In this document: piece after piece, positions 1,059 through 42,309 of the stretch
How the letters are laid out: every line of letters starts with the position of its first letter
How positions within the stretch are numbered: the first letter of the stretch is position 1
Origin: Lachnospiraceae bacterium
Lineage (GTDB): Bacteria; Bacillota; Clostridia; Lachnospirales; Lachnospiraceae
Length of the DNA: 42,309 nt
Reading direction: 5' to 3'
NCBI GenBank assembly: GCA_017521605.1
Contig: JAFXCD010000014.1
Location: 1-42,309 of the forward strand
The notes under the pieces: generated by a model
Told to the model about the DNA's origin: nothing
The model's database searches: none
Seen by the model: only the letters and a program-made list of their open reading frames with translations
Position numbers and translations under genes: made by a program

Positions 1059-2018
1059 TTATTTAATACCATAATATTCAGCCATAAACAGAATTTTTCT
1101 GGCCCAATTATGATGGGTTTTATATTCATTCATTCTTTCGCGGGAGGAACTGCCGGAAACAAGCTTGTTGCTTTCTTCACTCCAGTTTAAAATTGCCTTG
1201 GCGTCTTCATAGTCGTTGCGTGATACTTTATAGGCTTCGTTAATAATGGCAATCTGGTTGGGGTGAATGGCTGTTTTGCCCAGGAAGCCACAGAGCTGGT
1301 CTTCTTTTAGTTCGTTAGCCAGGCCGGTATCCCAACCGTCACCGCTATAGTATTCCCAAACAGGACCGGAAACAACATAATCCATACCAAATACAGTAAT
1401 AATATCCGAAAAAATATTATCAATAGGTTTGATGGAATGTATGGATTCATCCTTTTGTCTACGGAAACCAAATGTATGACATAAATCATTGCCACCTACG
1501 CGGATATTCAAAACATATGGTGCAATAGTATCCAGTTTTTCTTTTAAAGCATATAATATATGTGCCCTATGCTGCAGATGAATAATAGTCGGACTTTCGA
1601 AAATGGGCATCATATAAACAGGATTATTGGAAATGTTGTTTAGTTTTTCAATTGCTCCTATGTATGCATCCGCATTATCCAGTGCAAATTTTGGAATAAT
1701 AAATCCTGTAATAAGAGTACTTGCAGCTTCCAACTGATCAAATAGAAGTGGAATTTGCTCCGGATTTCTGACACGGATAAAAATTTTAGGTATATAAAAA
1801 TTTTGTGAAAGAGAAGCCTCGTGGATGCATTGCAAGGCGGTAATCAGCTTGCATTCAGCTTCCTGTACGCAATCGTCTTTGATAGTATCCTCCAGACACA
1901 ATGCCAGAGAGTATTTGTTGCCAAAACGTTCCTGTATTATGGACTTGGCAATGGATTCGTTATTGGCAGGGCAATATAATAACGCACCTACAGTGTAATA
2001 AATGGATAAATCTTTCAT
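1059..2018 (-). CDS. HpcH/HpaI aldolase / citrate lyase beta (CitE)-like protein of the Ter metabolite module
   Basis: This 319-residue protein resembles the CitE-like TIM-barrel aldolases that cleave or form C-C bonds on acyl substrates with Mg2+. In Ter loci such a gene recurs with two PRTases, an ATP-grasp enzyme and a HAD phosphatase; all of these lie within 17 kb here. Visible segments are VGALLYCPANNES near the N-terminus, KIFIRVRNPEQIP, PYVLNIRVGGNDL (metal-site region) and GFLGKTAIHPNQI near the C-terminus, the last being typical of CitE. I chose the ATG at 2018 because GAGGAC precedes it and homology begins there. The frame runs upstream to 2255, but that stretch is low-complexity and overlaps the divergent gene. 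The substrate is unknown. Confidence 0.85.
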   Translation of the reverse strand: MKDLSIYYTVGALLYCPANNESIAKSIIQERFGNKYSLALCLEDTIKDDCVQEAECKLITALQCIHEASLSQNFYIPKIFIRVRNPEQIPLLFDQLEAASTLITGFIIPKFALDNADAYIGAIEKLNNISNNPVYMMPIFESPTIIHLQHRAHILYALKEKLDTIAPYVLNIRVGGNDLCHTFGFRRQKDESIHSIKPIDNIFSDIITVFGMDYVVSGPVWEYYSGDGWDTGLANELKEDQLCGFLGKTAIHPNQIAIINEAYKVSRNDYEDAKAILNWSEESNKLVSGSSSRERMNEYKTHHNWARKILFMAEYYGIK

Positions 2019-2175
2019 AAAATAGTCCTCATATGAAAATAAATATAAACAATCTTTATCAATATAGCATATTATGCATAAAAATGGTAGATAAAAAAAT
2101 AAAAAAGTGATAAAATAATATAAATATATCATTAAATTTGGGGGATGAAAATATTTCAATATAAAAGGTGACAAA
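2019..2175. promoter_or_regulatory. Divergent AT-rich intergenic region of the Ter locus
   Basis: These 157 bases separate the aldolase (-) and the protease (+), so both promoters should lie here. The sequence is extremely AT-rich. On the minus strand an extended -10 (TGCTATATT) is visible near 2062-2070 without a good -35. The plus strand has several TATAAA-like sites that cannot be told apart by eye. A small palindrome GCATATTATGC sits at about 2067-2077. Confidence 0.4.
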
Positions 2176-3762
2176 ATGGAGAGCATTATAAACATACAAT
2201 ACAATAAAACAAAAATAACAGACATTGCTTCCTTTATTGGATTTAAAGGATTCACACAAGGTGAAACTAAGGAAGTATGCTTTGTCAGAGGTATAGGTGT
2301 TCATGGAGACTATATTTCTGAGATTGAAAGAATGGATAGTACACTCATGACGGAAATGAATCAGGGGAAGGGACTATATAGCCGCATAGAGGCTTTGCCG
2401 GTAATGAAAAGTGCAGAAGATATCAGCTTTTATTCTAACGCATATGACGATTGGGTGAAAACAGGAAAGAAAGAAATGAGAATTCACTCAACACGTGAAG
2501 AGGAAGGAAGAGCTGCAAGACTTTCAAAAGTTTGTCAGAGTATGGAGGACATATTTTTACAGGATAAAAAACAGGCAACGGACACTATGCTGAAAAATTT
2601 TCTGGTAAAGCTACTCTTTTGGTATGAAAGTGTTTTCAACCAAAATTGTTTTTTTTGGGATGACACAAAAATAATGAAGTTAGTGGCATTTAATATTGAA
2701 AAGAGACAAGAGTATTTATTTTTTTACATGGTAAGCTTGTTGGGGATTAATGTTCTTTTGCTTCAGAGTAAAGTAGATATTGGAGCAGAGGAAGAAAAGC
2801 TTGACTATTCTCAAAGATTTGTACTGGGTGAATTTAAAGAGATAAAGGTTCCGGTGTATCAATGGAAAGAATGTGTTGTGACGAGACAGGTAACACCACA
2901 AATTGCATCAAATCAAAATGATCTGAATAGTAATGGAAGGATTACAGTGAAGATTCCGGAAAGAAATCGCCCCAGCAGGCATCCGGCTTCTGATGTACAA
3001 AGGCAACAGAGTAATACACAGGAACAGAATGTTTCTGGTGGAAACAATTCTCAGCAGGGCAATCCCAGATTGGTTATTCCACCCAGACCGGGTGCATCCG
3101 ATACAAAAGCAGTAAAGTCAGGCAGACAGGTAAGTATAACCACACCTACACGTCCCGCGGTTACCAATAGTGGCGATCAAAGAGAGGAAAAAAGCTTTGA
3201 AGAGTTGGCTTTACTGGCTTCATCAATAGTGTTAATTACAGTATTTGACGCAAAAGGAGAAAGATTGGGTAGTGGTTCAGGTATAATGATAGGTAAAGAT
3301 GGATATATCCTCACTAACAATCATGTAGCCGCAGGAGGGAGAAGCTTTTCCGTACGGATAGAGGATGATGAGAAGGAGTATCTGACAGACGAGATTATAA
3401 AGTATCATTCGCTACTGGATCTGGCAATCATTCGAATTCAAAGACGATTAAATCCTATTCCTGTTTATAGAGGGAATAAGCCATTGGTAAGAGGACAGAA
3501 GGTGGTGGCTATTGGTAGTCCGCTGGGGTTGTTTAATTCGGTATCCAATGGAATTATTTCCGGCTTCCGTAAAATAGATGATGTGGATATGATTCAGTTT
3601 ACAGCACCAATTTCAAGAGGAAGCTCCGGAGGAGCGGTTCTTAATATGCAGGGTGAGGTTGTGGGAATCAGTACTGCCGGGATCGATGAAGGACAAAATA
3701 TTAATCTTGCCATGGGATATGAATGTATCAACATGTTTATACGAGGTTTTATACAAAATTAA
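2176..3762 (+). CDS. Trypsin-like serine protease with N-terminal YceG-like domain
   Basis: This 528-residue protein has three parts. Residues 1-230 form a globular domain; residues 138-226 align by eye with YceG 124-210 encoded next door (shared MLKN, VxLLQ and LDxxxR). Residues about 240-335 form a Pro/Gln/Asn/Ser-rich linker. Residues 340-528 are a chymotrypsin-fold protease of HtrA type with the complete triad: His383 (TNNHVAA), Asp415 (LLDLAII) and Ser484 (GSSGG), plus the GSPLGL strand. There is no signal peptide, transmembrane segment or PDZ domain, so it is probably cytoplasmic. GGTGAC precedes the ATG. Its place at the head of the Ter operon suggests processing of a Ter component, which is inference. 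Confidence 0.88.
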   Translation: MESIINIQYNKTKITDIASFIGFKGFTQGETKEVCFVRGIGVHGDYISEIERMDSTLMTEMNQGKGLYSRIEALPVMKSAEDISFYSNAYDDWVKTGKKEMRIHSTREEEGRAARLSKVCQSMEDIFLQDKKQATDTMLKNFLVKLLFWYESVFNQNCFFWDDTKIMKLVAFNIEKRQEYLFFYMVSLLGINVLLLQSKVDIGAEEEKLDYSQRFVLGEFKEIKVPVYQWKECVVTRQVTPQIASNQNDLNSNGRITVKIPERNRPSRHPASDVQRQQSNTQEQNVSGGNNSQQGNPRLVIPPRPGASDTKAVKSGRQVSITTPTRPAVTNSGDQREEKSFEELALLASSIVLITVFDAKGERLGSGSGIMIGKDGYILTNNHVAAGGRSFSVRIEDDEKEYLTDEIIKYHSLLDLAIIRIQRRLNPIPVYRGNKPLVRGQKVVAIGSPLGLFNSVSNGIISGFRKIDDVDMIQFTAPISRGSSGGAVLNMQGEVVGISTAGIDEGQNINLAMGYECINMFIRGFIQN

Positions 3763-3912
3763 TTGAATAGTAGAAATAAAGATGATATAATAGTAGAAAC
3801 TGCTTGAATACAGTAATTGATTAAAGCGGTTTTGGATATGATTATAATTATTTACATAAAAAGATTAATTGAAGTTAAGTTGACAGAGTGATAAGAAAGT
3901 AGTCCGGTATTT
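3763..3912 (+). other. Intergenic gap between protease and yceG
   Basis: This 150-nt AT-rich spacer contains TATAAT-like sequences (near 3787 and 3844) but no convincing -35/-10 pair or terminator. An internal promoter is possible but not demonstrated by the sequence. Confidence 0.3.
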
Positions 3913-6192
3913 ATGTTTGAACATGTAAAAATTCAGAATTTGGATGATTATTTCAAGGAACTAAGTAGCAGAAGTAATCAGGGAGTTTATTTTTATCGTA
4001 TTAATGCATATACTGACCAGGTTAGGGATTTTGTGGTGAAATATTATGAGGCGGCCAGAACTACCGGAGTAGTTATTGAAGGAAGGATTCCTAACCCGGA
4101 TGAAAAGAATTTGGCATATTATAATGAGATCATGGGAAATTCCTTTCAGGTGAGTAAACAATTTCTTGATGTAAGTTTGAGAAAATGGTTACCCAGGATG
4201 AGTGATTATCAGAGAAATACAGTAGCCGGTTCAATATATGACACGCTTGTATCCTTGCAAAATAGCGGAAAGAATGAAAATATGCTGAAAAATGCATATA
4301 TAAAGTTCATGTGCTGGCTGTATTATAAATTTGAAAGAGTAGTCAATCAATTGGGTAATGAGAAGATTCCTAAGATTCTATATGAAGGTAGTATCAGTAA
4401 TTATGAATTGATGTTGATAGAAATATTGGCAAATGCAGGTTGTGATGTGGTTCTCCTGCAATATGGCGGAGATGCGAATTATTTAAAGCTTGATTCTCAA
4501 TCCAGAGTATCAGATAATTTGACATTACCCAATATGAAGCCATTTCCTTCAGAGTTTAACTTGAAATGGGTTAGAGATGAAATTAAGAATAAATTAAATA
4601 GAGAGAGACTTTATGGCAAGAAACCTGAGGTGATGAACTGTACAAATGCTTGGATTCAAGGAAAAGGATTGGCAGATTTGAAAGTACCGATTCAGAACCG
4701 GGGAAATGATCCTAAATTGTTCTATAATTGCTTTTTGCGTATAACCGGTGTGGAAGACAAACTGACTTATATGAATGATCTGTATCAGTTGCAATTAGAA
4801 CTTAAAAACAGTGGAAGAAAACTTGTCATTGTGGATAAAGAGATAATGAATCCTGATGCTAATGAGATCAATAGCATTCAAAGAAAGAATTATTCCCGTC
4901 AGGAAGATATGATAATGGATTTATCCACAAATATCCGTTATACGTCTAATGCTGAATTGCAAAGAGTCATGATAAAGGCCTTTGTGGATGCTATATTGGA
5001 GGAGGGTAAGCAACCCGGTATCTCCTTAAATAAATTAACAAATAAAGCAGTTATACTGCTTTGTTGGCTGAAACGATATCAGGATAAATTGTTCCATAAT
5101 TGGAAGATGCCTGAAATAGGTGTTTTCATATATATGGGTGGATGTAAAAATGAAAATGAGGCGATGTTTTTAAGATATTTATCCAGGTTGCCTCTGGATG
5201 TGGCAATATTTGTGCCTAATCTTAATACCGCCTGTTGTTTGCAGGATAATTTGTTGTTTGAATTGAAGTATTCGAATAGCTTGATGATTCAGGAATTTCC
5301 GCAGGAAAGCACTGATATACATGTGGGGACGGCTGCATATCATGCAGAAAGAGAACTGGATACTATCATGTATAATGATTCCGGTATGTATCGGAATCAG
5401 CAATATAGTAAAGCAACAACTGTTATTTTACAGACTATGTGTGAAGAAATCAGTATTTTATGGCCACAGGAAGTGAAGTACAGGCATAATTTCAGTACAG
5501 TAAATGATATGGTTACCATACCTGTTATTTTTGCCAAGGTATCCGGTGTCAAGGATGGTGATGTAACAAAGTATTGGCAGGGGATTAAGGCATTGCTTAC
5601 ACAGGATACATTTTTGATTCAGCAGGTTCCTTTCTTACGAACTACCGATGAAAATCCTTTTAAGCAATATGCTACAGAGTTTTTTAAAAACGGAAAGCTC
5701 CAGAAAGCAAAGATAAAAGCACATCCTTCATATCAATATGGTGTATTGAGGGAAGAAATACAAGAACATATTTTAGACAAATTACAGCTTCTGATAGATC
5801 AGAAGATTATAAAAGGAACTTTTGAAAATGGTACGGAGTACACAATTATAGCAACTATATTGAATTTGCAAAAAGAGTTAATACGCATGATTCAAAAGTT
5901 TGATTTTACCAAAATGAATCCTAAGATTGTGTATATAAATACCACAGAAACTCCAATTTCCCTGGAGGATTCCATTTTGATAGCTTTTTTAAGCTTGGTG
6001 GGATTTGATATTGTATTCTTTGTTCCTACGGGATATCAAAGTATAGAGAAACACTTTAACAAAAAGCTGATGGAGGAGCATCAGGCCGGAGATTATGTAT
6101 ATGATCTGCAAGTGCCAAACTTTAATACTATCTCCGCAGCGACAAAAGGCCGTCAATCCTGGCGGGAAAAAATTTTCAAGAGAGGGAGTTAA
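3913..6192 (+). CDS. yceG: YceG-family protein of Ter loci (putative biosynthetic-module component)
   Basis: This 759-residue protein belongs by sequence and context to the YceG group found beside TelA and TerD genes in Bacillus and other Firmicutes; the biochemical function is unknown. I see a repeated unit: a helix with a CWL-like motif, then a Rossmann-like strand-helix-strand. It occurs around residues 124-210 (KILYEGS, CDVVLLQYGGD), 375-450 (GVFIYMGG, LDVAIFVPN) and 640-740 (KIVYINTT, FDIVFFVPTG). A second segment also repeats (FLRITGVEDK near 278; FAKVSGVKDG near 540). No membrane segment or signal peptide is visible. The stop is 2 nt before the telA start, so the genes are probably co-transcribed. 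The Bacillus protein is shorter as I recall it. Confidence 0.8.
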   Translation: MFEHVKIQNLDDYFKELSSRSNQGVYFYRINAYTDQVRDFVVKYYEAARTTGVVIEGRIPNPDEKNLAYYNEIMGNSFQVSKQFLDVSLRKWLPRMSDYQRNTVAGSIYDTLVSLQNSGKNENMLKNAYIKFMCWLYYKFERVVNQLGNEKIPKILYEGSISNYELMLIEILANAGCDVVLLQYGGDANYLKLDSQSRVSDNLTLPNMKPFPSEFNLKWVRDEIKNKLNRERLYGKKPEVMNCTNAWIQGKGLADLKVPIQNRGNDPKLFYNCFLRITGVEDKLTYMNDLYQLQLELKNSGRKLVIVDKEIMNPDANEINSIQRKNYSRQEDMIMDLSTNIRYTSNAELQRVMIKAFVDAILEEGKQPGISLNKLTNKAVILLCWLKRYQDKLFHNWKMPEIGVFIYMGGCKNENEAMFLRYLSRLPLDVAIFVPNLNTACCLQDNLLFELKYSNSLMIQEFPQESTDIHVGTAAYHAERELDTIMYNDSGMYRNQQYSKATTVILQTMCEEISILWPQEVKYRHNFSTVNDMVTIPVIFAKVSGVKDGDVTKYWQGIKALLTQDTFLIQQVPFLRTTDENPFKQYATEFFKNGKLQKAKIKAHPSYQYGVLREEIQEHILDKLQLLIDQKIIKGTFENGTEYTIIATILNLQKELIRMIQKFDFTKMNPKIVYINTTETPISLEDSILIAFLSLVGFDIVFFVPTGYQSIEKHFNKKLMEEHQAGDYVYDLQVPNFNTISAATKGRQSWREKIFKRGS

Positions 6193-6194
6193 CT

Positions 6195-7343
6195 ATGGGA
6201 CTTGATTTTAGTAAAACCAATACCCAACAGCAACAGGCTACACAGGTGGAAGAACCCAAGAAAGAAGTTGACGTAGTAGAAACCTATGATATTGTTGCGG
6301 ACAGACAGCAGTTAAACCAGGTGTTAGTAAATTCACCGGAAGTTGATGCTATCGTAAGCACTATTGAAATCGATAATATGGAATCTATCGTAACCTTTGG
6401 TGCAACAGCTGCGGAAGAAATTTCCAAAGCGTCAGATGTTATCTTGAATAATGTTAATATGTCACAGCTGGATAGTTCCAGCGAGATGCTTACTACATTG
6501 GCAAAGATAATGAACAAATTCGATATTGAAGAAATCCAGGATAATCCAAGCTTTTTAGGCAAGCTTTTTGGTGGTATGAAGAAGCAATTGGATAAAATAC
6601 TTGCCAAGTATCATACCATGGGGGAAGAAGTGGACAAGATTTATGTTCAGTTGAAGCAGTATGAAGCGGAGATTAAACAGTCCAACCGTAAACTGGATGA
6701 GATGTTTGATGTTAATGTGAGATATTACCATGAACTGGTTAAGTATATTCTGGCCGGTGAACAGGGTTGTCGTGAAATTGAGGCATATATTGCTCAGAGA
6801 CAGGCTGATATGGATGCTACCGGAGATAATGCCATTATGTTTGAAATTCAGTCACTTCAGCAGGCACTGATGATGCTGGAGCAGAGGACACAGGATTTGA
6901 GAACGGCAGAAAATGTTGCAATGCAGTCCATTCCTATGATTAAGACCATGGAATTCTCAAATATGAATCTGGTTAGAAAGATTAATTCAGCATTCATTAT
7001 TACGTTACCTGTATTTAAACAGGCACTGGCTCAGGCAATTATGTTGAAGCGTCAGCGTATCCAGGCAGAAGCAATTTCTGCATTGGATGAAAAGACCAAT
7101 GAAATGTTGATTAAGAATGCCAGAAATGCTGCTGAGCAGTCTAAGATGACTGCAAGACTGGCTTCAGGAAGTTCAATTAAGATTGAGACTTTGGAGACAA
7201 CATGGAGAACCATTGTGGATGGTATTGATGAGACGAAGCAGATTCAGGAAGATGCTCGTAAGCAAAGATTGGACGATCAAGCCAGACTGGCAAGTATTAA
7301 AGCTGAGTTTGACAAGATGTATAATATGCCCAAAACTAATTAA
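6195..7343 (+). CDS. telA: Toxic anion resistance protein, TelA/KlaA family
   Basis: This 382-residue, almost entirely helical and Gln/Glu-rich protein matches the TelA family (Bacillus YceH type), found with TerD proteins in tellurite and stress loci. Family landmarks are the [13 protein letters not shown] segment with [11 protein letters not shown] (about residues 115-135), the YHELVKYI and [17 protein letters not shown] region, and the C-terminal [22 protein letters not shown] segment. No transmembrane segment is present. It may be a coiled-coil scaffold, but the molecular role is not settled for the family. The start is 2 nt after the yceG stop behind AGAGGGAG. An 18-nt gap with AAAGGAGG leads into terD1. 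Confidence 0.93.
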
Positions 7344-7360
7344 CAAAGGAGGAACAAGTT

Positions 7361-7942
7361 ATGCCAATTAATTTGTCAAAAGGACAGAAAGTAGATTTAA
7401 CAAAAGGAAATCCCGGATTAAAGAGTATCATGGTGGGTCTTGGATGGGATGTAAATGCATTCGATTCAGGTGCAGATTTTGACTTGGATGCTGCATGCTT
7501 TATGCTTGGTGCCAGTGGAAAGTGTCCTACAGAAAAGGAATTTGTTTTCTATGGTAACCTGGAGCATACCAGTGCTTCTGTAAAGCATATGGGTGATAAT
7601 CTGACCGGTGACGGCGATGGAGATGATGAGCAGATTTTTGTTGATTTAACCAAGATTCCTGCAGATATCGAGAAAATTGCATTTACTGTTACCATTTATG
7701 ATGCAGAAACCAGACGTCAGAATTTCGGACAGGTATCCAATGCATTTATCAGAATTGTAGATGATGCAACAGGTACAGAACTGATTCGTTATGATTTGGG
7801 AGAGGATTTCTCAATTGAAACAGCTGTTGTAGTCGGAGAATTATATAGACACAGCGGAGAATGGAAGTTTAATGCAATTGGTAGTGGTTTCCAGGGTGGT
7901 CTGGCAGCATTGTGTGGTCACTATGGTATTGATGTAGCGTAA
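7361..7942 (+). CDS. terD: TerD-domain protein, copy 1
   Basis: This 193-residue single-domain TerD protein belongs to a Ca2+-binding beta-sandwich family implicated in tellurite, phage, metal and envelope stress. Likely ligands are visible: GLGWD with Asp30, DFDLDA (Asp39-Asp43) and the acidic loop DGDGDDEQ (residues 84-91). The MGDNLTG and [14 protein letters not shown] segments are also standard. ATG 7361 follows an ideal AAAGGAGG. It is the first of three tandem copies and is most like copy 2. Confidence 0.95.
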
Positions 7943-7956
7943 AGGGGGAAAAAAGA

Positions 7957-8538
7957 ATGCCGGTTAGTTTACAAAAAGGACAGAAAGTTAGTTTAACAAA
8001 GGGAAATCCCGGACTTAAGAACGTAGTGGTTGGTCTTGGATGGGATGTAAATGCATTTGATACAGGCGGAAGCTTTGACTTGGATACCGCAGCATTTTTG
8101 CTGGCAGATTCAGGTAAGGTTGCAAGCTCTGATGATTTCGTATTTTTCGGTAATTTGAAGCATGTTTCCGGTAGTGTACAACATATGGGTGATAACACAA
8201 CCGGTGAAGGTGATGGAGACGACGAACAGATTAAGATTGATTTGTCTTTAGTACCTGCCAGTGTTACAAAGATTGCTTTTTCTGTTACCATTTATGAGGC
8301 AGAAGCAAGACATCAGAACTTTGGACAGGTAACCAATGCATATATTAGAATTTATAATGAAGCAAATGGCGAAGAGCTGTTAAGATATGATTTGGGAGAA
8401 GATTTCTCAATTGAAACAGCTGCTGTATTTGGTGAATTATATAAGAATGGCGATGAGTGGAAATTCAATGCTATCGGAAGCGGCTATCAGGGTGGCTTAG
8501 CAGCACTTTGCGATAATTTTGGTGTAGAAGTTGGTTAA
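7957..8538 (+). CDS. terD: TerD-domain protein, copy 2
   Basis: This is a second 193-residue TerD protein, colinear with copy 1 without gaps and clearly a tandem duplicate. It keeps Asp30 in [14 protein letters not shown] (Asp41, Asp43) and the EGDGDDEQ loop (84-91). The C-terminus ([16 protein letters not shown]) is nearly the same as in copy 1. Divergence between the copies is spread over the whole length, so the duplication is not very recent. A 14-nt gap with AAAGGGGG leads to ATG 7957. It was probably retained because related TerD proteins work together in larger assemblies, which is inference. Confidence 0.95.
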
Positions 8539-8551
8539 GGAGGAGATTAAG

Positions 8552-9142
8552 ATGTCTATTAGTTTACAAAAAGGACAGAAGGTTAGCTTATCAAAGGATA
8601 ATGCAGGACTTGGAAAGGTTATTATTGGTTTGGGATGGGATGAAGTGCAGCAACCGAAGAAAGGCTTTTTCGCTCCTAAGCCGGCACCTATTGATTGTGA
8701 TGCATCTGCTATTTTATTACAGAACGGACATGTGGTTGATAAAGCAGATATTGTTTATTTCGGAAATTTGAGACATAATTCCGGTACTGTACAGCATATG
8801 GGAGATAACCTGACCGGTGCAGGCGATGGAGATGATGAGCAGATTGTTGTAGATTTATCACGTATTCCTCAGCAGTATGATAAGATTGTAGTTGTAGTTA
8901 ATATTTATCAGGCAGTACAGAGACAGCAGCATTTCGGATTAATTCAGAACGCATTTATCAGATTGGTAGATGGCAGAAATAATAGTGAGATGTGCAAGTA
9001 TAATTTAACAGATAATTATTCCGGTATGACAGCTATGATTTTTGGTGAAGTTTACAGACATAATGGAGAGTGGAAATTCACAGCTATTGGACAAGGAACC
9101 AATGATCCTGGTTTAGGTGAACTTGTAAACAGATTCAGATAA
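8552..9142 (+). CDS. terD: TerD-domain protein, copy 3 (diverged)
   Basis: This is a 196-residue TerD protein. I place the start at ATG 8552, behind AAGGAGGAG and giving [11 protein letters not shown], which aligns with copies 1 and 2; an upstream TTG at 8531 would only add seven residues. The metal-site strand differs: after GLGWD there is an insertion EVQQPKKGFFAPKPAP, followed by IDCDASA in place of DFDLDA. The AGDGDDEQ loop is intact. It may bind Ca2+ with altered affinity. The C-terminus ends with TNDPGLGELVNRFR, unlike the other copies. A hairpin follows the stop. Confidence 0.94.
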   Translation: MSISLQKGQKVSLSKDNAGLGKVIIGLGWDEVQQPKKGFFAPKPAPIDCDASAILLQNGHVVDKADIVYFGNLRHNSGTVQHMGDNLTGAGDGDDEQIVVDLSRIPQQYDKIVVVVNIYQAVQRQQHFGLIQNAFIRLVDGRNNSEMCKYNLTDNYSGMTAMIFGEVYRHNGEWKFTAIGQGTNDPGLGELVNRFR

Positions 9143-9158
9143 GAATAACAGTTTAAGC

Positions 9159-9189
9159 GAAGGAGAAACTAAATTAGGGTTTCTCCTTC
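9159..9189 (+). terminator. Hairpin after the terD cluster (weak terminator or attenuator)
   Basis: GAAGGAGAAAC (9159-9169) pairs perfectly with GTTTCTCCTTC (9179-9189) across a 9-nt loop. The downstream T run is poor (TGTGCTGTG), so partial read-through into the ATPase gene is likely. Confidence 0.55.
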
Positions 9190-9277
9190 TGTGCTGTGAA
9201 ATTTTAGGTCTATATAGTGATTTATATTAGGGTAATACCTTGGTGTAAGAATGATAAAAGTTAAGAGGAGATGAAAT

Positions 9278-11950: not shown

Positions 11951-12689
11951 TGTAGATATGGATAATACACTTATCTATTCCTATAAGCATGATATCGGAG
12001 AAGATAAGTACTGTGCAGAGATTTACCAGGAACGCGAAATTTCTTTTATGACACATAAGACCGGCAGGCTTCTAAAGGAGCTTGCCGGCAAAATATTGAT
12101 TGTTCCGACAACAACCAGAACTCGTGAGCAATATGAACGAATCAATTTGGGAATAGGTAAAATACCATATGCGTTGGTTTGTAATGGTGGAGTACTTATC
12201 CGAGACGGAATAGAGGATGAAGATTGGTATGCCACATCACGTCAGATGATTGAAGATTGTAAAGAGGAGCTGGAGCTGGGAAGAAAACTATTGGAGGAAG
12301 ATGAAGACAGGTGTTTTGAAGTCAGGTTTATTAAGGAATTGTTCCTTTTTAGTAAGAGTGACCAGCCGGAGCGGACAATTAAAAGATTGTCAGAAAAATT
12401 GAACCTTGCATTGGTAAATGTTTTCAGTAATGGAACGAAAGTATATGTGGTACCGGTGAAGCTAAACAAGGGTACAGCATTACAGAGGTTTAAAGAATGG
12501 ATTCAAGCGGATACGACTATCGCAGCAGGGGATAGTGAGTTTGATGTTCCTATGCTGGCATGTGCAGATATTGGATTAGCACCACAGACTTTAGAAATGA
12601 ATAAGAAGATAAGTGGTGAATTAATAAAGATTCCGGAAAAAGTTTTATTTTCGGAAGGGATTGTGGAGTATTTATATAAAAGAGTTTAA
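11937..12689 (+). CDS. HAD-family phosphatase of the Ter metabolite module
   Basis: This is a 250-residue haloacid dehalogenase-type phosphohydrolase. Motif I is VDMDNTL (nucleophile Asp7, acid Asp9), motif II is in IVPTTTRT, the conserved Lys is in NKGTALQRF, and motif IV is AAGDSEFDVPML. A Cof-like cap lies between motifs II and III. In Ter systems a HAD enzyme accompanies the PRTase/ATP-grasp pathway and is proposed to dephosphorylate an intermediate. Its ATG overlaps the ATPase 3' end by 14 nt, so translation is probably coupled. No strong ribosome site is visible. A bidirectional terminator follows at once. Confidence 0.88.
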   Translation: MVVFNVDMDNTLIYSYKHDIGEDKYCAEIYQEREISFMTHKTGRLLKELAGKILIVPTTTRTREQYERINLGIGKIPYALVCNGGVLIRDGIEDEDWYATSRQMIEDCKEELELGRKLLEEDEDRCFEVRFIKELFLFSKSDQPERTIKRLSEKLNLALVNVFSNGTKVYVVPVKLNKGTALQRFKEWIQADTTIAAGDSEFDVPMLACADIGLAPQTLEMNKKISGELIKIPEKVLFSEGIVEYLYKRV

Positions 12690-12690
12690 T

Positions 12691-12714
12691 AAAAGCGCCC
12701 CGGAGGGCGCTTTT
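12691..12714. terminator. Bidirectional terminator
   Basis: AAAAGCGCCC (12691-12700) pairs with GGGCGCTTTT (12705-12714) around a CGGA tetraloop. Perfect 10-bp stem with A and T runs on both sides, between the convergent HAD and AIM24-like genes. Confidence 0.93.
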
Positions 12715-12730
12715 ATTGAGTATAAAAATA

Positions 12731-13486
12731 TTAGTCAATACCAATATGAATACCTGAACCATGTCGGGAATAAGATGTATTCGAACTGTTGGCAGTAGGG
12801 ACACCGGCACGCTCTGTGGGTTGAATAATAACGGTAACAGGTTGGTGACTGCTCCATTCAAAGGAATAGGATTCTCCGGAGGATTGTCCAATGAAGGTTT
12901 TCCAAGAGACATCTGCTTTTACCTGAGGATCACAATAGTCATGTTCAGACATCCAGCAAACAACCGCATCAGGGTCAACAGAAATAGTGCTACCATTTTT
13001 TGTATTACTAAGAACAATGGGATTACCATCGCAAAGAACTGCTACATAAGCATTGTGGCCTATCCCTGTTAAGGTTGAAGTAGCAAGACCTCTCTGTGAC
13101 AAAATACCAACACCGATAAAACGAACATCATATTTACAATCCTGTGTAAAGGCCAGGATGTTTTCGGACTCCACGGAAATAACTTCACCCATACCTAATT
13201 TATAGATAACTACATGTCTGCCATAGCTTGCAAAATATGTAACAGAGTCACCATTATACATTACTTTCATCAAGGGGATGTTTTCGCCGGTTACACGACG
13301 AACTATTGAGCCTAATATGGCTTGCCCCACATTTTGCTGTGGTCCAAATAATACCTTATCAAAGGTATAGTTTTTACCACCCATATTTTCACCTGCAACA
13401 AAAGCGCCGGCTTTGGTAAAAAGTACATCACTGCCACTGCAGGTTACTTTTAATGTTAATTCATTTACTGTTTCAAAAGTCAACAT
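12731..13486 (-). CDS. AIM24/TIGR00266-like beta-rich protein in the Ter locus
   Basis: This 251-residue protein resembles the AIM24 (TIGR00266) family of beta-roll proteins of unclear function. Diagnostic-looking segments are FGPQQNVGQAILGSIVRRVTGENIPLM in pieces (about 48-75), SVESENILAF, GVGILSQRGLAT and VDPDAVVCW. The last 20 or so residues are Ser/Asn/Gly-rich and end in GIHIGID. ATG 13486 follows a strong AAGGAGGAAT. It lies 17 nt after the TerD-like gene on the same strand, so the two form a small operon inverted relative to the main Ter genes. AIM24-like domains are often seen near TerD genes, supporting a shared role. Confidence 0.75.
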   Translation of the reverse strand: MLTFETVNELTLKVTCSGSDVLFTKAGAFVAGENMGGKNYTFDKVLFGPQQNVGQAILGSIVRRVTGENIPLMKVMYNGDSVTYFASYGRHVVIYKLGMGEVISVESENILAFTQDCKYDVRFIGVGILSQRGLATSTLTGIGHNAYVAVLCDGNPIVLSNTKNGSTISVDPDAVVCWMSEHDYCDPQVKADVSWKTFIGQSSGESYSFEWSSHQPVTVIIQPTERAGVPTANSSNTSYSRHGSGIHIGID

Positions 13487-13503
13487 AATTATTCCTCCTT
13501 ATA

Positions 13504-14328
13504 CTAATCCAGTACTTGTACACCATATAATTCGCATAAACCATTCAGGTCTTTTGCAACACCATTTCCAACAGCATTAAACTTCCATGCTCCATTGTGT
13601 TGATAAACTTCACCAATCATCATAGAGATAACATTGTTGTAATAATCGGTCATTTGAAAGCTTACCAGTTCAGTGTTGGTTTGTGGATTTAGGATACGTA
13701 CATAGGCATCCTTCATCATAGCAAAATGTAAACGTTTTTCCATAGCCTCGTTGATGGTTAGAACGAATACAATCTTTTTGACAGCAGGATTTAGTGTTTG
13801 CAGATTAATATCAATTATTTCTCTGTCTATGCCATTATCCATACGAAAAACAGTACTGTTGTCGGGACTGTTAGTCTGTCCATAGAAAACAAACCATTCA
13901 TCTCCTAATACCTTACCATCCTGTCCCAGCAAAAACGCTGAAACATCCACATCGCATTCAGCATTGGTAGAATTCCAACCGAAGCATGCTTTCAGATTGG
14001 TGAGAGGAGCACCATCCATAGTCACTTTTTGACCTTTCTGCACAGGTTTTATTAATTGTGGAATAGGTTTCTGCACAGGCATGGTAGTCGCTGATGATGT
14101 AACCGGTGCCGGGTGCGGAGTAACAGGAACTGTGGAGACAGGAGTAGAAATATTCTGTCTGGGGGCAGTAGAATTCTGGGGTTGGCTTTGTACAGAATTC
14201 GATGTTTTCCAAGTGTTGATAGATTCCACATTCTGGGCTGAAACAGAACCATGTGTGACTGCATCGTTGATGGAGGAAACATTGGTACGGTCAAAGGGGG
14301 CCTTTGACTTCATTGGTATATTAATCAT
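13504..14328 (-). CDS. TerD-domain protein with long Pro/Ser/Thr-rich N-terminal extension
   Basis: This 274-residue protein has a disordered N-terminus (residues 1-95, rich in Ser, Thr, Pro, Val and Gln) followed by a TerD domain (96-274) starting VQKGQKVTM. The metal-site features have drifted: GLGWD is CFGWN (118-119), CDVDVSAF (125-132) resembles the DxD strand, and the DGDGDDEQ loop is replaced by MDNGIDREI. The domain may have weak or no Ca2+ binding and may instead be an adaptor. I chose ATG 14328, preceded by AGGGAGGG, over an upstream in-frame start at 14367 that lies inside a 16-bp inverted repeat. First gene of the AIM24 operon. Confidence 0.88.
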   Translation of the reverse strand: MINIPMKSKAPFDRTNVSSINDAVTHGSVSAQNVESINTWKTSNSVQSQPQNSTAPRQNISTPVSTVPVTPHPAPVTSSATTMPVQKPIPQLIKPVQKGQKVTMDGAPLTNLKACFGWNSTNAECDVDVSAFLLGQDGKVLGDEWFVFYGQTNSPDNSTVFRMDNGIDREIIDINLQTLNPAVKKIVFVLTINEAMEKRLHFAMMKDAYVRILNPQTNTELVSFQMTDYYNNVISMMIGEVYQHNGAWKFNAVGNGVAKDLNGLCELYGVQVLD

Positions 14329-14344
14329 CTTACCCTCCCTAAAT

Positions 14345-14389
14345 ATAGATATAATCAGAAAGCGCATTAAAAATTCTGATTATATCTAT
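14345..14389 (-). promoter_or_regulatory. 16-bp perfect inverted repeat in the leader/operator of the TerD-AIM24 operon
   Basis: ATAGATATAATCAGAA (14345-14360) and TTCTGATTATATCTAT (14374-14389) are exact inverted copies 13 nt apart. A minus-strand TATAAT (14388-14393) overlaps the outer end, placing the likely start of transcription within the repeat. It could be an operator or a 5' mRNA hairpin ending 16 nt before the start codon. Confidence 0.6.
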
Positions 14390-14441
14390 TATACTATAAA
14401 ATACAAATAAAGGAAATAAAGAAAATAGGAATTTTAAATAA

Positions 14442-14470
14442 TTGACAGTAATCTAAACAAAGTCTATACT
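14442..14470 (+). promoter_or_regulatory. Sigma-A promoter of the PRTase/ATP-grasp operon
   Basis: TTGACA (14442-14447), a 17-nt spacer and TATACT (14465-14470) form a near-consensus promoter. A small inverted repeat, AATGGT-GTGA-ACCATT (14473-14488), spans the expected start site and could be an operator. A second stem (14494-14512) lies in the leader before the AAGGAG ribosome site. Confidence 0.8.
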
Positions 14471-14545
14471 TGAATGGTGTGAACCATTAACAGAATGCTT
14501 GTATAAGGCATTTGCATTACATATTTAATTAAGGAGATAAAGGGG

Positions 14546-15655
14546 ATGTATTCAGAGGCAGATTTGGTGGGGATTGCTAAGAGAGAGAATAATAATAAAA
14601 GAAATTATCTGGTGGTGAATAAATTACAGGGAAAACATGTACCGGTTGGTCCCGCAGAAGCTATGGGAATGTTTAAGGAATTAGCCGGTACTATAAAAGG
14701 AGTTTATGAAAAAGAAAGACTCTTACTGGTGGGATTCGCAGAAACAGCTACTGCAATAGGTGCAGCGGTGGCAATTGAGCTGGGAACAAAATATATACAA
14801 ACAACAAGGGAAATTATACCCGGAGTGGAGTATATATTTTTTTCTGAGGAGCATAGTCATGCTACAGAACAGAAACTGGTAAAGGATGATATAGATAGTT
14901 GTATAGGACAGATTGACCGTATTGTTTTTATTGAGGATGAAGTGACTACAGGAAAGACGATTTTAAATATCATCACATTGTTAGAAAAACAATATTCGTA
15001 TCCATTAAAGTTTGCGGTAGCTTCTATATTAAATGGTATGGATGAGGTGGCACTACAAACATATGCCAAGAAGGAGATTTCACTGCATTATCTGGTGAAA
15101 ACCAATCATGATGCTTATACTGCAGTAGCAGATGGTTATGCAGGCGACGGTTTATATGTAAGCTGTGATATGGGTGAAGACGTGGATAGAGTCTCTTTTG
15201 TCTCTAAAATAGAAATAGAAGGGATGAAGAATGCACGCAGATTGGTAGATGCTTTGGAATATCAGAAGGCGTGTGAAGGGCTTAGTAACAAAATATTGGA
15301 TGAGTTGGAGCAAGATATAAAAGGAAAAGTATTGGTGCTTGGAACAGAAGAATTTATGTATCCGGCTCTTTATGTGGCCGGACAATTAGAGAATAGAGGT
15401 ATGGCGGTTAAGAATCATGCAACCACCAGAAGTCCCATAGCTGTTAGTACAGAACTTCAATATCCTCTGCATGAGAGATATGAATTGCGAAGTTTATATG
15501 ATAGAAACAGAGTGACATATGTTTATGATATAGGTTCTTATGATCTGGTGTTAGTAATAACAGATGCCAAAGGAGAAGACAAGGAAGGTTTTCATTCTTT
15601 GATAAATGCATTACAAAAGAAAAATTCTAAAATAGTTTACGTAAGGTGGTATTAA
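14546..15655 (+). CDS. Phosphoribosyltransferase with C-terminal TRSP domain (Ter metabolite module)
   Basis: This 369-residue protein has an N-terminal PRTase fold with the PRPP-binding loop FIEDEVTTGKT (residues 128-138) after two acidic residues, and a C-terminal TRSP domain containing the name-giving Thr-Arg-Ser-Pro at 294-297 and the VYDIGSYDLVLVITDA segment. In Ter loci this protein is paired with a PELOTA-containing PRTase, an ATP-grasp enzyme and a HAD phosphatase, and is proposed to build a ribosylated metabolite; the substrate is unknown. It is first in its operon, directly under a strong promoter, with AAGGAG before ATG 14546. The next start is 1 nt after its stop. Confidence 0.9.
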   Translation: MYSEADLVGIAKRENNNKRNYLVVNKLQGKHVPVGPAEAMGMFKELAGTIKGVYEKERLLLVGFAETATAIGAAVAIELGTKYIQTTREIIPGVEYIFFSEEHSHATEQKLVKDDIDSCIGQIDRIVFIEDEVTTGKTILNIITLLEKQYSYPLKFAVASILNGMDEVALQTYAKKEISLHYLVKTNHDAYTAVADGYAGDGLYVSCDMGEDVDRVSFVSKIEIEGMKNARRLVDALEYQKACEGLSNKILDELEQDIKGKVLVLGTEEFMYPALYVAGQLENRGMAVKNHATTRSPIAVSTELQYPLHERYELRSLYDRNRVTYVYDIGSYDLVLVITDAKGEDKEGFHSLINALQKKNSKIVYVRWY

Positions 15656-15656
15656 G

Positions 15657-16706
15657 TTGAGAAGTTCGTATAGTGAAGAGGATGTTGTTTTATTATTAAA
15701 GGATATTACAGGGTTGGTACAACCACAGTCAACAGAAGAGAGAGAAAAAAAGATTCAGGCAGGTACTCACTACTGTGAAATGCTTCCTATTGAATATGTG
15801 CCGACTCAGAAATATATGGAGGTATATGAAGAAGCGCTTGAACAGTTTGCTGAGCCAACCGCTCATGCAGTAGCAAGATTATCTGATAAAATAATAGAGA
15901 AAAAAGGCAATGATGTAGTGTTGGTATCTTTAGCAAGAGCAGGAATCCCAATTGGTATTTTAGTAAAGCGCTATTTGAAGCAGAAATACCGTATAAATGT
16001 ACCACATTATGCTATATCAATTATCAGAGGAAAAGGTATTGATGATAATGCAATGAAATATTTGCTAAAGCAATATCAGCCGGAGCAATTGTTATTTGTA
16101 GATGGCTGGGTGGGCAAAGGTGCTATCCTGAATGAACTTAAAAAAGATATGGAGGCATATGAGGATGTTTCGGCAGATATTGCAGTTATTGCAGATCCGG
16201 CAAATGTCACAGAGCTTTGTGGAACCCATGAGGATATTTTGATCCCCAGTTCATGCTTAAATAGTACTGTTTCCGGATTGGTTAGTCGTACATTTCTAAG
16301 GGACGACATAATTGGTGCTGATGATTTTCACGGAGCGGTATATTATGGAGAATTAAAGGAGTCAGATTTATCTTATGAATTTATTGAGGCTATAGAAAAA
16401 TACTTTATTTCAGATGTACCGGAAGAAGGAAAACTTGTAGAAGGTAAGGGTATAGATGAGGTATGTGCTATAGCAGAAAAATTCGGAATAGAAGATATTA
16501 ATCTTGTGAAACCCGGAATTGGAGAGACAACCAGAGTATTACTTAGGAGAGTACCCTGGAAGGTATTGATAGATGAAAAACATAAGCAGGATGACTCCTT
16601 GCGCCATGTTTTACGTTTGGCACAGGAAAAGGGCGTACCGATAGAATACTATCCTTTACGCCATTATAAATGTTGTGGAATGATAAAAAAATTGGCGGAT
16701 GCATAG
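15657..16706 (+). CDS. PRTase-like enzyme with C-terminal PELOTA RNA-binding-type domain (StiP family)
   Basis: The 349-residue product has an N-terminal PRTase-like domain: VVLVSLARAGIPIG (87-100), YAISIIRGKGID (118-129) and the probable PRPP loop LLFVDGWVGKGAI (145-157). Its C-terminal domain of about 95 residues (255-349) is of PELOTA/L7Ae type, with VKPGIGETTRVLLRR and the YPLRHYKCCGMIKKL end. Databases name this family cysteine protease StiP, but the visible motifs fit a phosphoribosyltransferase better. The start is TTG 15657, supported by AAGGTGG at 15642-15648 and by the 1-nt gap to the previous stop. It is the partner of the TRSP PRTase. Confidence 0.87.
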   Translation: MRSSYSEEDVVLLLKDITGLVQPQSTEEREKKIQAGTHYCEMLPIEYVPTQKYMEVYEEALEQFAEPTAHAVARLSDKIIEKKGNDVVLVSLARAGIPIGILVKRYLKQKYRINVPHYAISIIRGKGIDDNAMKYLLKQYQPEQLLFVDGWVGKGAILNELKKDMEAYEDVSADIAVIADPANVTELCGTHEDILIPSSCLNSTVSGLVSRTFLRDDIIGADDFHGAVYYGELKESDLSYEFIEAIEKYFISDVPEEGKLVEGKGIDEVCAIAEKFGIEDINLVKPGIGETTRVLLRRVPWKVLIDEKHKQDDSLRHVLRLAQEKGVPIEYYPLRHYKCCGMIKKLADA

Positions 16707-16756
16707 GTAGTTAGAATTAACATAGAAAAGATGGAAGGTTTTAGGTGGAAAAAAAG

Positions 16757-17773
16757 ATGGTCAGAGTATGGTTTAATCATTGGTTCAGTACTTCTTATCG
16801 ATTAATTGAGTTGATGAAGAAGGATGTAAATGAACAGGTATATGTAATAGGAAGTAATAAACAGGTACATTCTATTATTCAGGAGGTATGTGATGAATGG
16901 TATGAGGAGCCTGATATTGGGGGAGAAGAGTATATTGAGTACTGTTTGAACTTTTGTAAAGAACATAATGTAGAGGTGTTCGTGCCACGAAGACTTATGG
17001 TACTGATTAGTCAGAATAGGGAACGTTTTGAGTCCTTAGGAGTAAAATTGATGGTAGATGATTATCAGGTAATCTCCTTTTTAAATGATAAGGCAGCTAC
17101 CTATGAATTCTTCAGTAAATATAGTGGATTGTATATTCCAGATTATTTTATTGTAAAGACAGCTGAACAGCTCACAGAGGCTTACAATACCCTCAAAGAA
17201 AAATACGGAAGATGCTGTATGAAATTTGTAAAAGATGAAGGTGGCATGAGTTTCCGTAAAATAGTGGATAAAGTTGATCAATTTGCAGGTTTGCGTATGT
17301 ATCCGGGTAATGAAATTGCATTCGATTCATTAATGGATACTTTAAGCATGGTAGAAGAGTTTGATGATTTAATGATTATGCCGTATTTGCCGGGATATGA
17401 AATCAGTGTAGATTGTTTACAGACAGAAGATAGTCTTATTGCGATACCGAGAAAAAAGGGTCATGGGCGTCATGAAAAGGTAGAATATTCTCAACAGATT
17501 ATGGATATGGTGAAGATTATTATGGCAGAAATCAAACTGCAATATCCTTGCAATATTCAATTTAAAATTAAAGATGATATTCCCTATTTACTCGAAATCA
17601 ATACAAGAATGTCCGGTGGTTTACAAATGAGTTGTTTGGCAACAGGTGTGAATATTCCCAATATTGCATTGAATAAGTTACTGGGTAGAAATGTGAAATG
17701 GAGCATGGATACTAAGGAGAAGATAGTTTCTTATATTGAAATTCCCAGAATTGTACAAGAGTATGAGGAATAG
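16757..17773 (+). CDS. ATP-grasp enzyme of the Ter metabolite module
   Basis: This 338-residue ATP-grasp ligase is expected to join a carboxylate to an amine or thiol via an acyl-phosphate. Visible are the N-terminal MVRVWFNHWFS strand, the nucleotide-binding region CCMKFVKDEGGMSFR, the P-loop-like PYLPGYEISVD, the RKKGHGRH turn and the Mg2+ ligands Glu280 and Asn282 in LEINTRMSGG. AGGTGG lies 8 nt before ATG 16757; an in-frame GTG at 16745 behind GGAAGG would add four residues and cannot be excluded. It follows the PELOTA gene by 50 nt with no terminator, so it belongs to the same operon. The substrate is unknown. Confidence 0.88.
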   Translation: MVRVWFNHWFSTSYRLIELMKKDVNEQVYVIGSNKQVHSIIQEVCDEWYEEPDIGGEEYIEYCLNFCKEHNVEVFVPRRLMVLISQNRERFESLGVKLMVDDYQVISFLNDKAATYEFFSKYSGLYIPDYFIVKTAEQLTEAYNTLKEKYGRCCMKFVKDEGGMSFRKIVDKVDQFAGLRMYPGNEIAFDSLMDTLSMVEEFDDLMIMPYLPGYEISVDCLQTEDSLIAIPRKKGHGRHEKVEYSQQIMDMVKIIMAEIKLQYPCNIQFKIKDDIPYLLEINTRMSGGLQMSCLATGVNIPNIALNKLLGRNVKWSMDTKEKIVSYIEIPRIVQEYEE

Positions 17774-17811
17774 TACTATAAGTTTGACCTGTAATGTGTA
17801 TGAGGATTGGT

Positions 17812-18960
17812 ATGATAACATTAGAAGAATTATTGACAAAGATTCTGAATAGGGATTTGGTACAAATAATATTAAGTGATTCACAGGATAAAGAGTTTGG
17901 GCACAAGATAAAGATTCGTCCGGTTCTTATGAAGGGTGAATTGCTTTTTCAAGAAACACTATATCGTGGTACTCAGGTTTTTCATGAGAATTATACTGCA
18001 GCTGCCTTGAAGGAACGTGTGCAAGCATTATTAGCAGAAGTGTTCCGCCAGGGAGAGTTTCAGGGTAGTTCTTTATGGGGAAATGTATTGGTCAGTAAAA
18101 AAGGGAAGATGACTATAAAAACCAAGCAGATACAGGGTAAACAAGAAGTAAGGGAGCTGGCTCATAATAGAGAAAAACAGTATATATTAAGGGAGGGAAG
18201 TCCGGTTGATTTTTTAGTAGGACTTGGTGTTCAGACTCCGGAAGGCAAAATTACAAAGAATCGTTATGATAAGTTTCGTCAGATAAACAGGTATCTGGAA
18301 TTTATTGAAGATGTTTTGGATAATCTGCCTACAGACAGAACAATTCAAATTATTGATTTTGGATGTGGTAAATCGTATTTGACTTTTGCAATGTATTATT
18401 ATTTACATGAACTACAAAAAAGAGACATTAGAGTAACCGGTCTGGATTTAAAAAGAGATGTGATTGAACATTGTAATGACCTGGCAAGATCGTGCGGATA
18501 TGAATATCTGAGCTTTGAGGTAGGTGATATCAGTACCTATCAAAGTAATAAGACTGTTGATATGGTGGTTTCCCTTCATGCTTGTGATACAGCAACAGAT
18601 TATGCAATAGATAAGGCTGTAAAATGGGGCGCCAGCGTAATTATGACAGTGCCTTGTTGCCAGCATGAGCTTAACAAACAGATATCATGTAAGGAATTAC
18701 AATCCATATTAAAATATGGGTTAATTAAAGAACGGATTTCGGCACTTGTAACGGATGCTATAAGAGCTAATTTGTTGGAGGAACAGGGCTATGATACTCA
18801 GATTTTAGAATTTATTGACATGGAGCATACGCCAAAGAATATGCTAATTCGTGCAGTAAAGCGAAGTGGCAACGCAAAAATGGGTAAGAAGAATAATGTA
18901 GTTGAAACCATAGAATTTCTACATGTGGAACCAACACTTAAAAGTTTGTTAGATAAGTAA
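17812..18960 (+). CDS. Class I SAM-dependent methyltransferase, last gene of the Ter metabolite operon
   Basis: This 382-residue protein has an N-terminal domain of about 145 residues that I do not recognise, a middle segment REGSPVDFLVGLG, then a Rossmann methyltransferase domain. The SAM-binding motif I is IIDFGCGKSYLTF (Asp182-Lys187), and later segments are VTGLDLKRDVI, VVSLHACDTATDYA and MTVPCCQHEL. The pattern fits the Methyltransf_32-like group; the target could be RNA, protein or a small molecule. ATG 17812 has GAGG 6 nt upstream; in-frame ATGs at 17794 and 17800 lack ribosome sites. It is 38 nt after the ATP-grasp gene with no terminator between, so it is probably co-transcribed. Confidence 0.82.
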   Translation: MITLEELLTKILNRDLVQIILSDSQDKEFGHKIKIRPVLMKGELLFQETLYRGTQVFHENYTAAALKERVQALLAEVFRQGEFQGSSLWGNVLVSKKGKMTIKTKQIQGKQEVRELAHNREKQYILREGSPVDFLVGLGVQTPEGKITKNRYDKFRQINRYLEFIEDVLDNLPTDRTIQIIDFGCGKSYLTFAMYYYLHELQKRDIRVTGLDLKRDVIEHCNDLARSCGYEYLSFEVGDISTYQSNKTVDMVVSLHACDTATDYAIDKAVKWGASVIMTVPCCQHELNKQISCKELQSILKYGLIKERISALVTDAIRANLLEEQGYDTQILEFIDMEHTPKNMLIRAVKRSGNAKMGKKNNVVETIEFLHVEPTLKSLLDK

Positions 18961-42178: not shown

Positions 42179-42309
42179 GTGCGCCCAGCGAAGGGCAATT
42201 AACCAAATGGGTAAAAATCCCGTCTAATTAAGGTCTACCCAACCGATTAGTAGCGAGTCTTGAGTAGCTGTCAGTAATGACAGTTGCTAAGCGTAGACAG
42301 CGAGCAAGT
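42179..42309 (+). mobile_element. Group II intron, 5' end (runs off the window)
   Basis: GTGCGCCC at 42179-42186 is the standard 5' boundary of bacterial group II introns. It is followed by AGCGAAGGGC and AAGGTCTACCCAACCGA, then GC-richer folded sequence with CTGTCAGTAATGACAG, as expected for domain I. Only the first 131 nt are in the window, so the reverse transcriptase/maturase frame and the 3' end are not visible. It is inserted in the plus orientation 44 nt downstream of the CPBP gene stop and interrupts no recognised gene on this side. Confidence 0.8.

Follow-up and report, generated by a model that had tools for sequence, protein, structure and literature searches.

A TerC-less Ter gene block of a Lachnospiraceae bacterium with a Ca2+-type P-type ATPase beside its TerD genes

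The window analyzed here, a 42,309-nucleotide stretch of DNA from a Lachnospiraceae bacterium (GenBank assembly GCA_017521605.1, contig JAFXCD010000014.1; C84 among our contig handles), is a contig of a 3.8-Mb genome that is assembled into 125 contigs and is 92.9% complete and 6% contaminated. Between positions 1059 and 17773 it carries a Ter system, in which a gene for a PMCA-like Ca2+-type P-type ATPase (9278..11950, forward strand; TIGR01517), hereafter the pump, follows the third TerD gene. We consider it probable that this is a clostridial-type Ter stress or defence block, where TerC, the metal exporter found in other Bacillota, has given way to a dedicated PMCA-like P-type ATPase beside TerD. 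The sequences themselves show which genes are present, that ATPase and TerD adjoin across genomes, that the pump alternates with TerC, that the Ter-linked ATPases form a separate clade, that one same-genus genome has an empty site and that phages carry versions of the block; the association of pump and TerD is well supported, and it is the flow of ions and its coupling that we infer. The Ter system and its parts are known, and the TerC-less, pump-bearing form is a variant of it.

The absence of TerC, remarked upon in the initial annotation, was confirmed. No TerC match was obtained in any of 32 same-family genomes, among them the window's own (93% complete), 30 of the 32 with the Ter marker StiP and two from the same genus without it; the same search was positive in 9 of 14 control genomes. 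With this membrane protein missing from the system, we filed the locus as a TerC-less variant. In a phylum-wide sample, StiP was present in 24 of 398 genomes, our own included, and 23 of these lie outside the family. Within 20 kb of StiP in these 23 genomes, TerC was found in nine, the pump in seven (one of them, G568, with a weak StiP match) and both together in none (Fisher p = 0.019 for these StiP-based counts, whose rows share ancestry and are not independent). TerC was not found anywhere in the genomes of the seven out-of-family bacteria with a pump near StiP, and in two further genomes that likewise lack TerC, G669 and G691, the pump belongs to a TerD cluster that is distant from StiP. 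At the nine TerC loci, the TerC gene adjoins the TerD array (among the query-matched genes), usually at the end opposite to the position that the pump takes outside the family.

Within the family, we relied on StiP as the marker of Ter systems; it scored over the cut-off in 30 of 397 genomes, our own included. PF15632 (ATP-grasp) was tried as a family-wide marker and rejected as unspecific, since it also matches carbamoyl-phosphate synthases (145 of 150 genomes) and gave five strong matches only (E 2.5e-34 or better). Conservation of the ATPase beside Ter genes in relatives, on which the initial annotation had staked its proposal, was checked and found: the pump adjoins the TerD array in 27 of the 30 StiP genomes, namely in the window, in 25 genomes recognized by script (same strand, gap of at most 1.5 kb, the largest seen being 483 bp) and in G003, where TerD and pump stand on two fetched loci about 270 bp apart. 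In G270, one of the 27, the order is reversed and the pump precedes TerD. Of the remaining three genomes, G169 has the pump in the cluster but two genes away from TerD, and G016 and G170 break at contig ends. In G029 the pump is visible as a contig-end fragment only. Judged by coordinates, 22 of the 30 genomes have the pump no more than 20 kb from StiP, to which the G029 fragment can be added. The gene for the HAD phosphatase overlaps the pump gene or is at most 160 bp distant from it, as judged from stop-to-stop frames, in 17 of the 29 other StiP genomes.

A set of 80 named loci, which overlaps with these genomes and includes some of the same contigs, gave a similar view. TerD is present in 46 of them; after 11 loci cut before the next gene had been set aside and L138 readmitted, 36 were informative, and in 32 of these the pump follows TerD on the same strand within 1.5 kb. 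This count includes L147, where the HAD gene stands between TerD and pump, and L130 and L146, which were counted by short pump fragments of 26-27 bits. When the search was started from the window pump instead (E 1e-130 or better), 46 places in 45 of the 397 genomes were found, of which 37 adjoin TerD (26 where the genome has StiP, 11 where it does not), one is in the cluster and two are contig breaks. Pumps that are 63-88% and 36-37% identical to that of the window occupy the same place. The TerD-pump string of G194 also contains a RAGATH-18 RNA (L217:9243-9317) and a Clostridiales-1 RNA (L217:7769-7941).

The Ter-linked pumps also form a group of their own in phylogenetic trees. In a first tree of 96 ATPases, 50 of 51 Ter-linked pumps and six solo pumps fell on one side, and 39 unlinked ATPases together with L312 on the other. 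A second tree, from which ten rows had been dropped, placed three phage pumps and a pump from an Entomospira plasmid on the Ter side. The fullest tree, for which the dropped rows were restored and eleven ATPases added (a few ATPases were unfetched or too short), comprised 110 rows and united 53 of 53 Ter-linked, six solo and three phage pumps in one clade (support 99), with 48 of 48 unlinked ATPases outside it. The early label 'unlinked' was derived from the distance to StiP and from 3.5-kb loci; 20 further Ca2+ ATPases were then fetched with their surroundings, and no TerD was found near 18 of them, the other two, those of G669 and G691, turning out to be Ter-linked and being counted as such in the fullest tree. 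With these added neighbourhood and tree checks, the clade result became stronger and the motif result weaker.

As to its family, the window pump passes the PMCA-type model TIGR01517 with 561.8 bits (cut-off 507.05) and falls far short of the PMR1-type model (407.7 against a cut-off of 798.3). It possesses DKTGT, PEGLP in M4, an Asn and an Asp in M6, and no Glu in M5, and we take these residues to be the ones that matter in PMCA-type pumps. The actuator motif TGES is replaced by NGEA at residues 154-157. Among the rows of the first tree, the Ter-linked pumps have NGE in 98%, the actuator Glu in 100% and Ala as the fourth letter in 63%, and the unlinked ones have TGE in 100%; the M5 position is mostly Ala (84%) in the former and mostly Glu (85%) in the latter. 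In these rows the Ter group retains DKTGT, PEGLP and the M6 Asn/Asp. We read the Ter-linked pumps as predicted PMCA-like Ca2+ transporters, most of which have a changed actuator loop. Among solved structures, Listeria LMCA1 (6zhf, 376 bits) and the plant plasma-membrane pump ACA8 (8qmp, 382 bits) are similar to the window pump over nearly its full length and share with it PEGLP and the M6 Asn...Asp; they have TGE[S] where the window pump has NGEA, and the linkage to TerD sets the latter apart.

The pump and TerD are also found together on phages. Two IMG/VR contigs of jumbo phages (L319 and L320; 355 and 308 kb), both of which encode a terminase large subunit, carry a 60-61% identical pump followed directly by three TerD genes, and the enzyme module was not found within the stretches fetched from them. 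A 67.5-kb IMG/VR phage contig (L321, L323, L337, L338) with terminase, portal and integrase genes carries the pump and four TerD genes beside genes for ResIII and a DNA methylase. At a second place, this phage has the five-enzyme module, with CitE, TRSP, StiP and HAD (the last a weak match, 69 bits) followed by a gene without a match, then ATPgrasp and a gene with a Macro domain; an ADP-ribosylglycohydrolase gene is likewise present there. The occurrence of the last two near the module hints at a possible link of the Ter product to ADP-ribose-like chemistry. A plasmid search returned seven records and a separate search of phage records 130, all of less than 60% identity; no Ter gene was found in the stretch fetched around the pump of the Entomospira plasmid p98.

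The initial annotation had treated the pump and the Ter genes as one system. The conservation of the pump beside TerD supports this; the tight coupling to the complete five-enzyme module has been weakened. The pump accompanies TerD, not the full set of enzymes: 11 pump-TerD strings occur in same-family genomes without StiP, and ATP-grasp was found in the fetched loci of 5 of the 29 other StiP genomes. In 7 of the 30 StiP genomes the pump is on another contig than StiP or, in G185, 232 kb away from it. In the single-contig genome G669, a cluster of CitE, TRSP, TerD and pump (L340) lies more than 1 Mb from StiP.

Several observations weigh against the view that a dedicated Ca2+ pump has replaced TerC. 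In five of the 23 out-of-family StiP genomes, neither TerC nor the pump was seen close to StiP, and no TerD cluster contained a pump. Three of the informative named loci (L122, L149 and L178) have no pump next to TerD, and at L138 it is the HAD gene that follows TerD, the pump standing elsewhere in the cluster. No Ter gene was present in the stretches fetched around 6 of the 46 pump places (one of them, G337:C2, cut on one side). The genomes are related, so that the counts are not independent events, and the trees are quick searches with flagged long branches, in the first of which L312 fell on the other side. TGES occurs in one Ter-linked pump, that of G669, and the unlinked sister pumps of G720 and G759 share the PMCA-like M6 residues; the proposed choice of Ca2+ as the ion is based on family models and residues.

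Moreover, in 10 of the 30 StiP genomes, including our own, no Cation_ATPase_C gene other than the pump was found, which would be compatible with a housekeeping role. The six solo places of the pump clade within the family likewise speak for an ordinary housekeeping Ca2+ pump whose place beside the Ter genes is incidental. This explanation was nevertheless already disfavoured, and we hold it to be improbable: the position of the pump is kept across genomes as divergent as the identities given above, its clade is separate from other Ca2+ ATPases, some of which come from the same genomes, and phages carry it together with TerD. The same phages suggest another explanation, in which TerD and pump would chiefly be a phage-exclusion or superinfection device that counters ion leakage or alters the envelope when a phage enters and that phages use against their rivals. 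The pair is present in the two jumbo phages and in the phage with an integrase, where genes for ResIII and a DNA methylase stand next to it, and a Ter role in superinfection competition has been proposed for jumbo phages (PMC7824862, in excerpt). In the window itself, a PADLOC scan of ten proteins (TerD2 to TerD4 and the AIM24-like protein left out) gave a single match, that of the YceG-trypsin fusion through its protease part (RT-Protease_XI, 2.3e-16), and the flanking genes scanned, those for ATP synthase epsilon, QueT and MCP, are not defence genes. We give this explanation a slim chance.

Somewhat better placed than these two, yet still unlikely in our view, is the possibility that the pump exports Mn2+, or both Mn2+ and Ca2+, and does the job of TerC/MeeF, that is, keeps cytosolic Mn2+ low and metalates secreted enzymes at the Sec translocon. 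The pump alternates with TerC in the cluster, and the TerC protein MeeF has Mn efflux activity and helps to metalate exoenzymes (PMC10550928, in excerpt). A title in the reference list of the same paper describes a Streptococcus Mn2+/Ca2+ ATPase under the control of a Mn riboswitch, so that P-type ATPases and TerC can share a task. Such a riboswitch was not found in the window, and an RNA search of the loci of seven relatives returned M-box, RAGATH-18 and Clostridiales-1 RNAs only. Furthermore, the pump passes the PMCA model and stays far under the cut-off of the PMR1 model. Its M6 reads NLVMD and has Ile at the position that is Gln in the Mn2+-carrying Pmr1.

Returning to the PMCA-like pump as a replacement of TerC, one can envisage how such a block might function. 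TerD binds Ca2+, and TerD1 of the window matches the solved TerD structures 2kxt/2kxv with 243 bits. Envelope or phage stress would render the membrane leaky and allow entry of Ca2+, which would be bound by the tandem TerD proteins; Ca2+-loaded TerD might then pass the ion to the adjacent pump, or regulate it, and the pump would expel it. TelA, YceG and the YceG-trypsin protease may work at the membrane, and the enzymes may yield a nucleotide-like product that serves as a signal or effector. The pump may, as the initial annotation proposed, set the Ca2+ level to which TerD responds, with Mn2+ export as the rival reading. TerD would work in a pair with an exporter in the membrane, which would be TerC in some Bacillota and the pump in clostridial lineages and phages, and the TerD-pump pair would constitute the minimal portable unit, with the metabolite module being optional. 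More tentatively, and with less confidence than we place in the replacement of TerC as such, we suggest that the core of Ter systems consists of TerD and a metal exporter in the membrane, that this exporter can be either TerC or a dedicated P-type Ca2+ pump, the two being interchangeable, and that the TerD-pump pair is a self-contained, phage-mobile unit for handling the Ca2+ surge of an envelope breach or phage entry, to which the metabolite module is an add-on.

The Ter system itself is poorly understood. In many gut bacteria and some phages, it has a Ca2+-pump-like gene of its own beside TerD, where TerC, the metal exporter, would usually be expected. The alternation of TerC with an ATP-driven Ca2+-type pump beside TerD suggests that the job of TerD is tied to metal export. 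The pump provides the field with a component whose ion and regulation can be measured directly, and the phage-borne minimal units are small operons with which a role in defence or superinfection can be probed.

The window shares with the Ter-dependent stress response systems (Anantharaman, Iyer and Aravind 2012, as described in the excerpt of PMC7824862) TerD, TelA, YceG, the TRSP and StiP-PELOTA PRTases, the CitE-like lyase, HAD and ATP-grasp; unlike them, it lacks TerC, has a Ca2+-type P-type ATPase beside TerD and possesses a YceG-trypsin fusion. Among the matches listed, no title or abstract names the pump as a bacterial Ter partner; the 2012 paper on Ter systems could contain it. The yceCDE genes of Bacillus subtilis, which we take to be TerD-type genes, offer a further likeness to the window, as they are also joined to a membrane metal exporter. 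This exporter is MeeF (YceF), the TerC protein of the yceCDE-meeF operon; TerC proteins such as MeeF and MeeY have Mn efflux activity and help to metalate secreted enzymes during Sec export (PMC10550928, in excerpt). MeeF belongs to the LysE superfamily and is linked to Mn2+, whereas the window's candidate exporter is an ATP-driven P-type pump. Huge phages, Jug among them, have been reported to carry both a Ca2+ P-type ATPase and TerD genes, with the pump cotranscribed with a small upstream gene and TerD beside other genes (PMC12363816, in excerpt). None of the 11 places in this excerpt that name the two genes describes them as neighbours, whereas in the phages analyzed here the pump is contiguous with three to four TerD genes.

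The gene layout of the window was assigned with Pfam and NCBIfam family models. All five enzymes that reportedly make up the Ter metabolite module are present, and the matches agree with the initial annotation also with respect to YceG, TelA, four TerD domains and an AIM24-like protein. The first gene, transcribed divergently, encodes the CitE-like C-C bond lyase (C-C_Bond_Lyase; 1059..2018, reverse strand; PF15617, E 4.6e-94); it probably starts near 2018 and not at 2255, as the longer open reading frame enters the divergent protease gene. The predicted protease is a YceG-like domain fused to an HtrA-type trypsin (2176..3762, forward, as are the features that follow up to the HAD gene), whose catalytic residues H383/D415/S484 are identical in all 60 rows of an alignment (the window and 59 locus frames, some of which duplicate one contig). 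A putative sigma-70-like promoter (TTGAAT-17-TATAAT with TG before the second hexamer; 3763..3791), a consensus match only, precedes the gene for YceG (3913..6192; three matched stretches, E 5.5e-129). TelA (6195..7343; E 1.2e-101, 340.6 bits) is followed by TerD1 (7361..7942), TerD2 (7957..8538) and TerD3 (8552..9142, probably the correct start), which all keep the acidic GDGDDE segment; the four TerD genes match the family model at E 9.1e-53 or better. In the 135-bp gap between TerD3 and the pump, a consensus scan found neither a strong promoter nor a terminator. The gene for the HAD phosphatase (11937..12689) overlaps the ATPase gene by 14 bp (11937-11950), in line with the overlap reported initially. 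A terminator-like hairpin of 13 pairs (12688..12717), again a consensus match only, lies between it and the convergent gene for the AIM24-like protein (12731..13486, reverse), next to which stands TerD4 (13504..14367, reverse) with an N-terminal extension and without the GDGDDE segment. A promoter-like site (TTGACA-17-TATACT, 11/12; 14442..14470, forward; consensus match only) is situated ahead of the forward genes for PRTase_2 plus TRSP (14546..15655), the PRTase-like StiP plus PELOTA (15657..16706) and ATPgrasp_Ter (16745..17773).

The methyltransferase gene at the right edge of the block (17794..18960, forward; PF13679) had been counted as part of the system in the initial annotation, an assignment that has to be withdrawn. 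It was found in none of the fetched loci of the 29 other StiP genomes and in none of the 80 named loci, and in the same-genus genome G344 the left flank (atpC, orf594) directly abuts the methyltransferase gene and the genes after it, the whole Ter block being absent. The methyltransferase was hence ruled out as a Ter component and belongs to the chromosomal backbone, and the Ter block may have been gained or lost as one unit. The methyltransferase gene of G344 itself (L315:9999-11157) is broken by a stop. StiP was not found over the cut-off in a second same-genus genome, G022.

Our own genome has a second TerD locus away from the cluster (G000:C61:21290-22246; L005, L006), a single frame of about 397 amino acids with two TerD domains. 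The best TelA scores per same-family genome fall into one group around E 1e-125 and another around 1e-100; the Ter TelA of the window sits with the lower-scoring group, so that the widespread TelA may be a separate paralogue. At the contig end (window 42214-42309), the start of a group II intron (RF02005) was detected.

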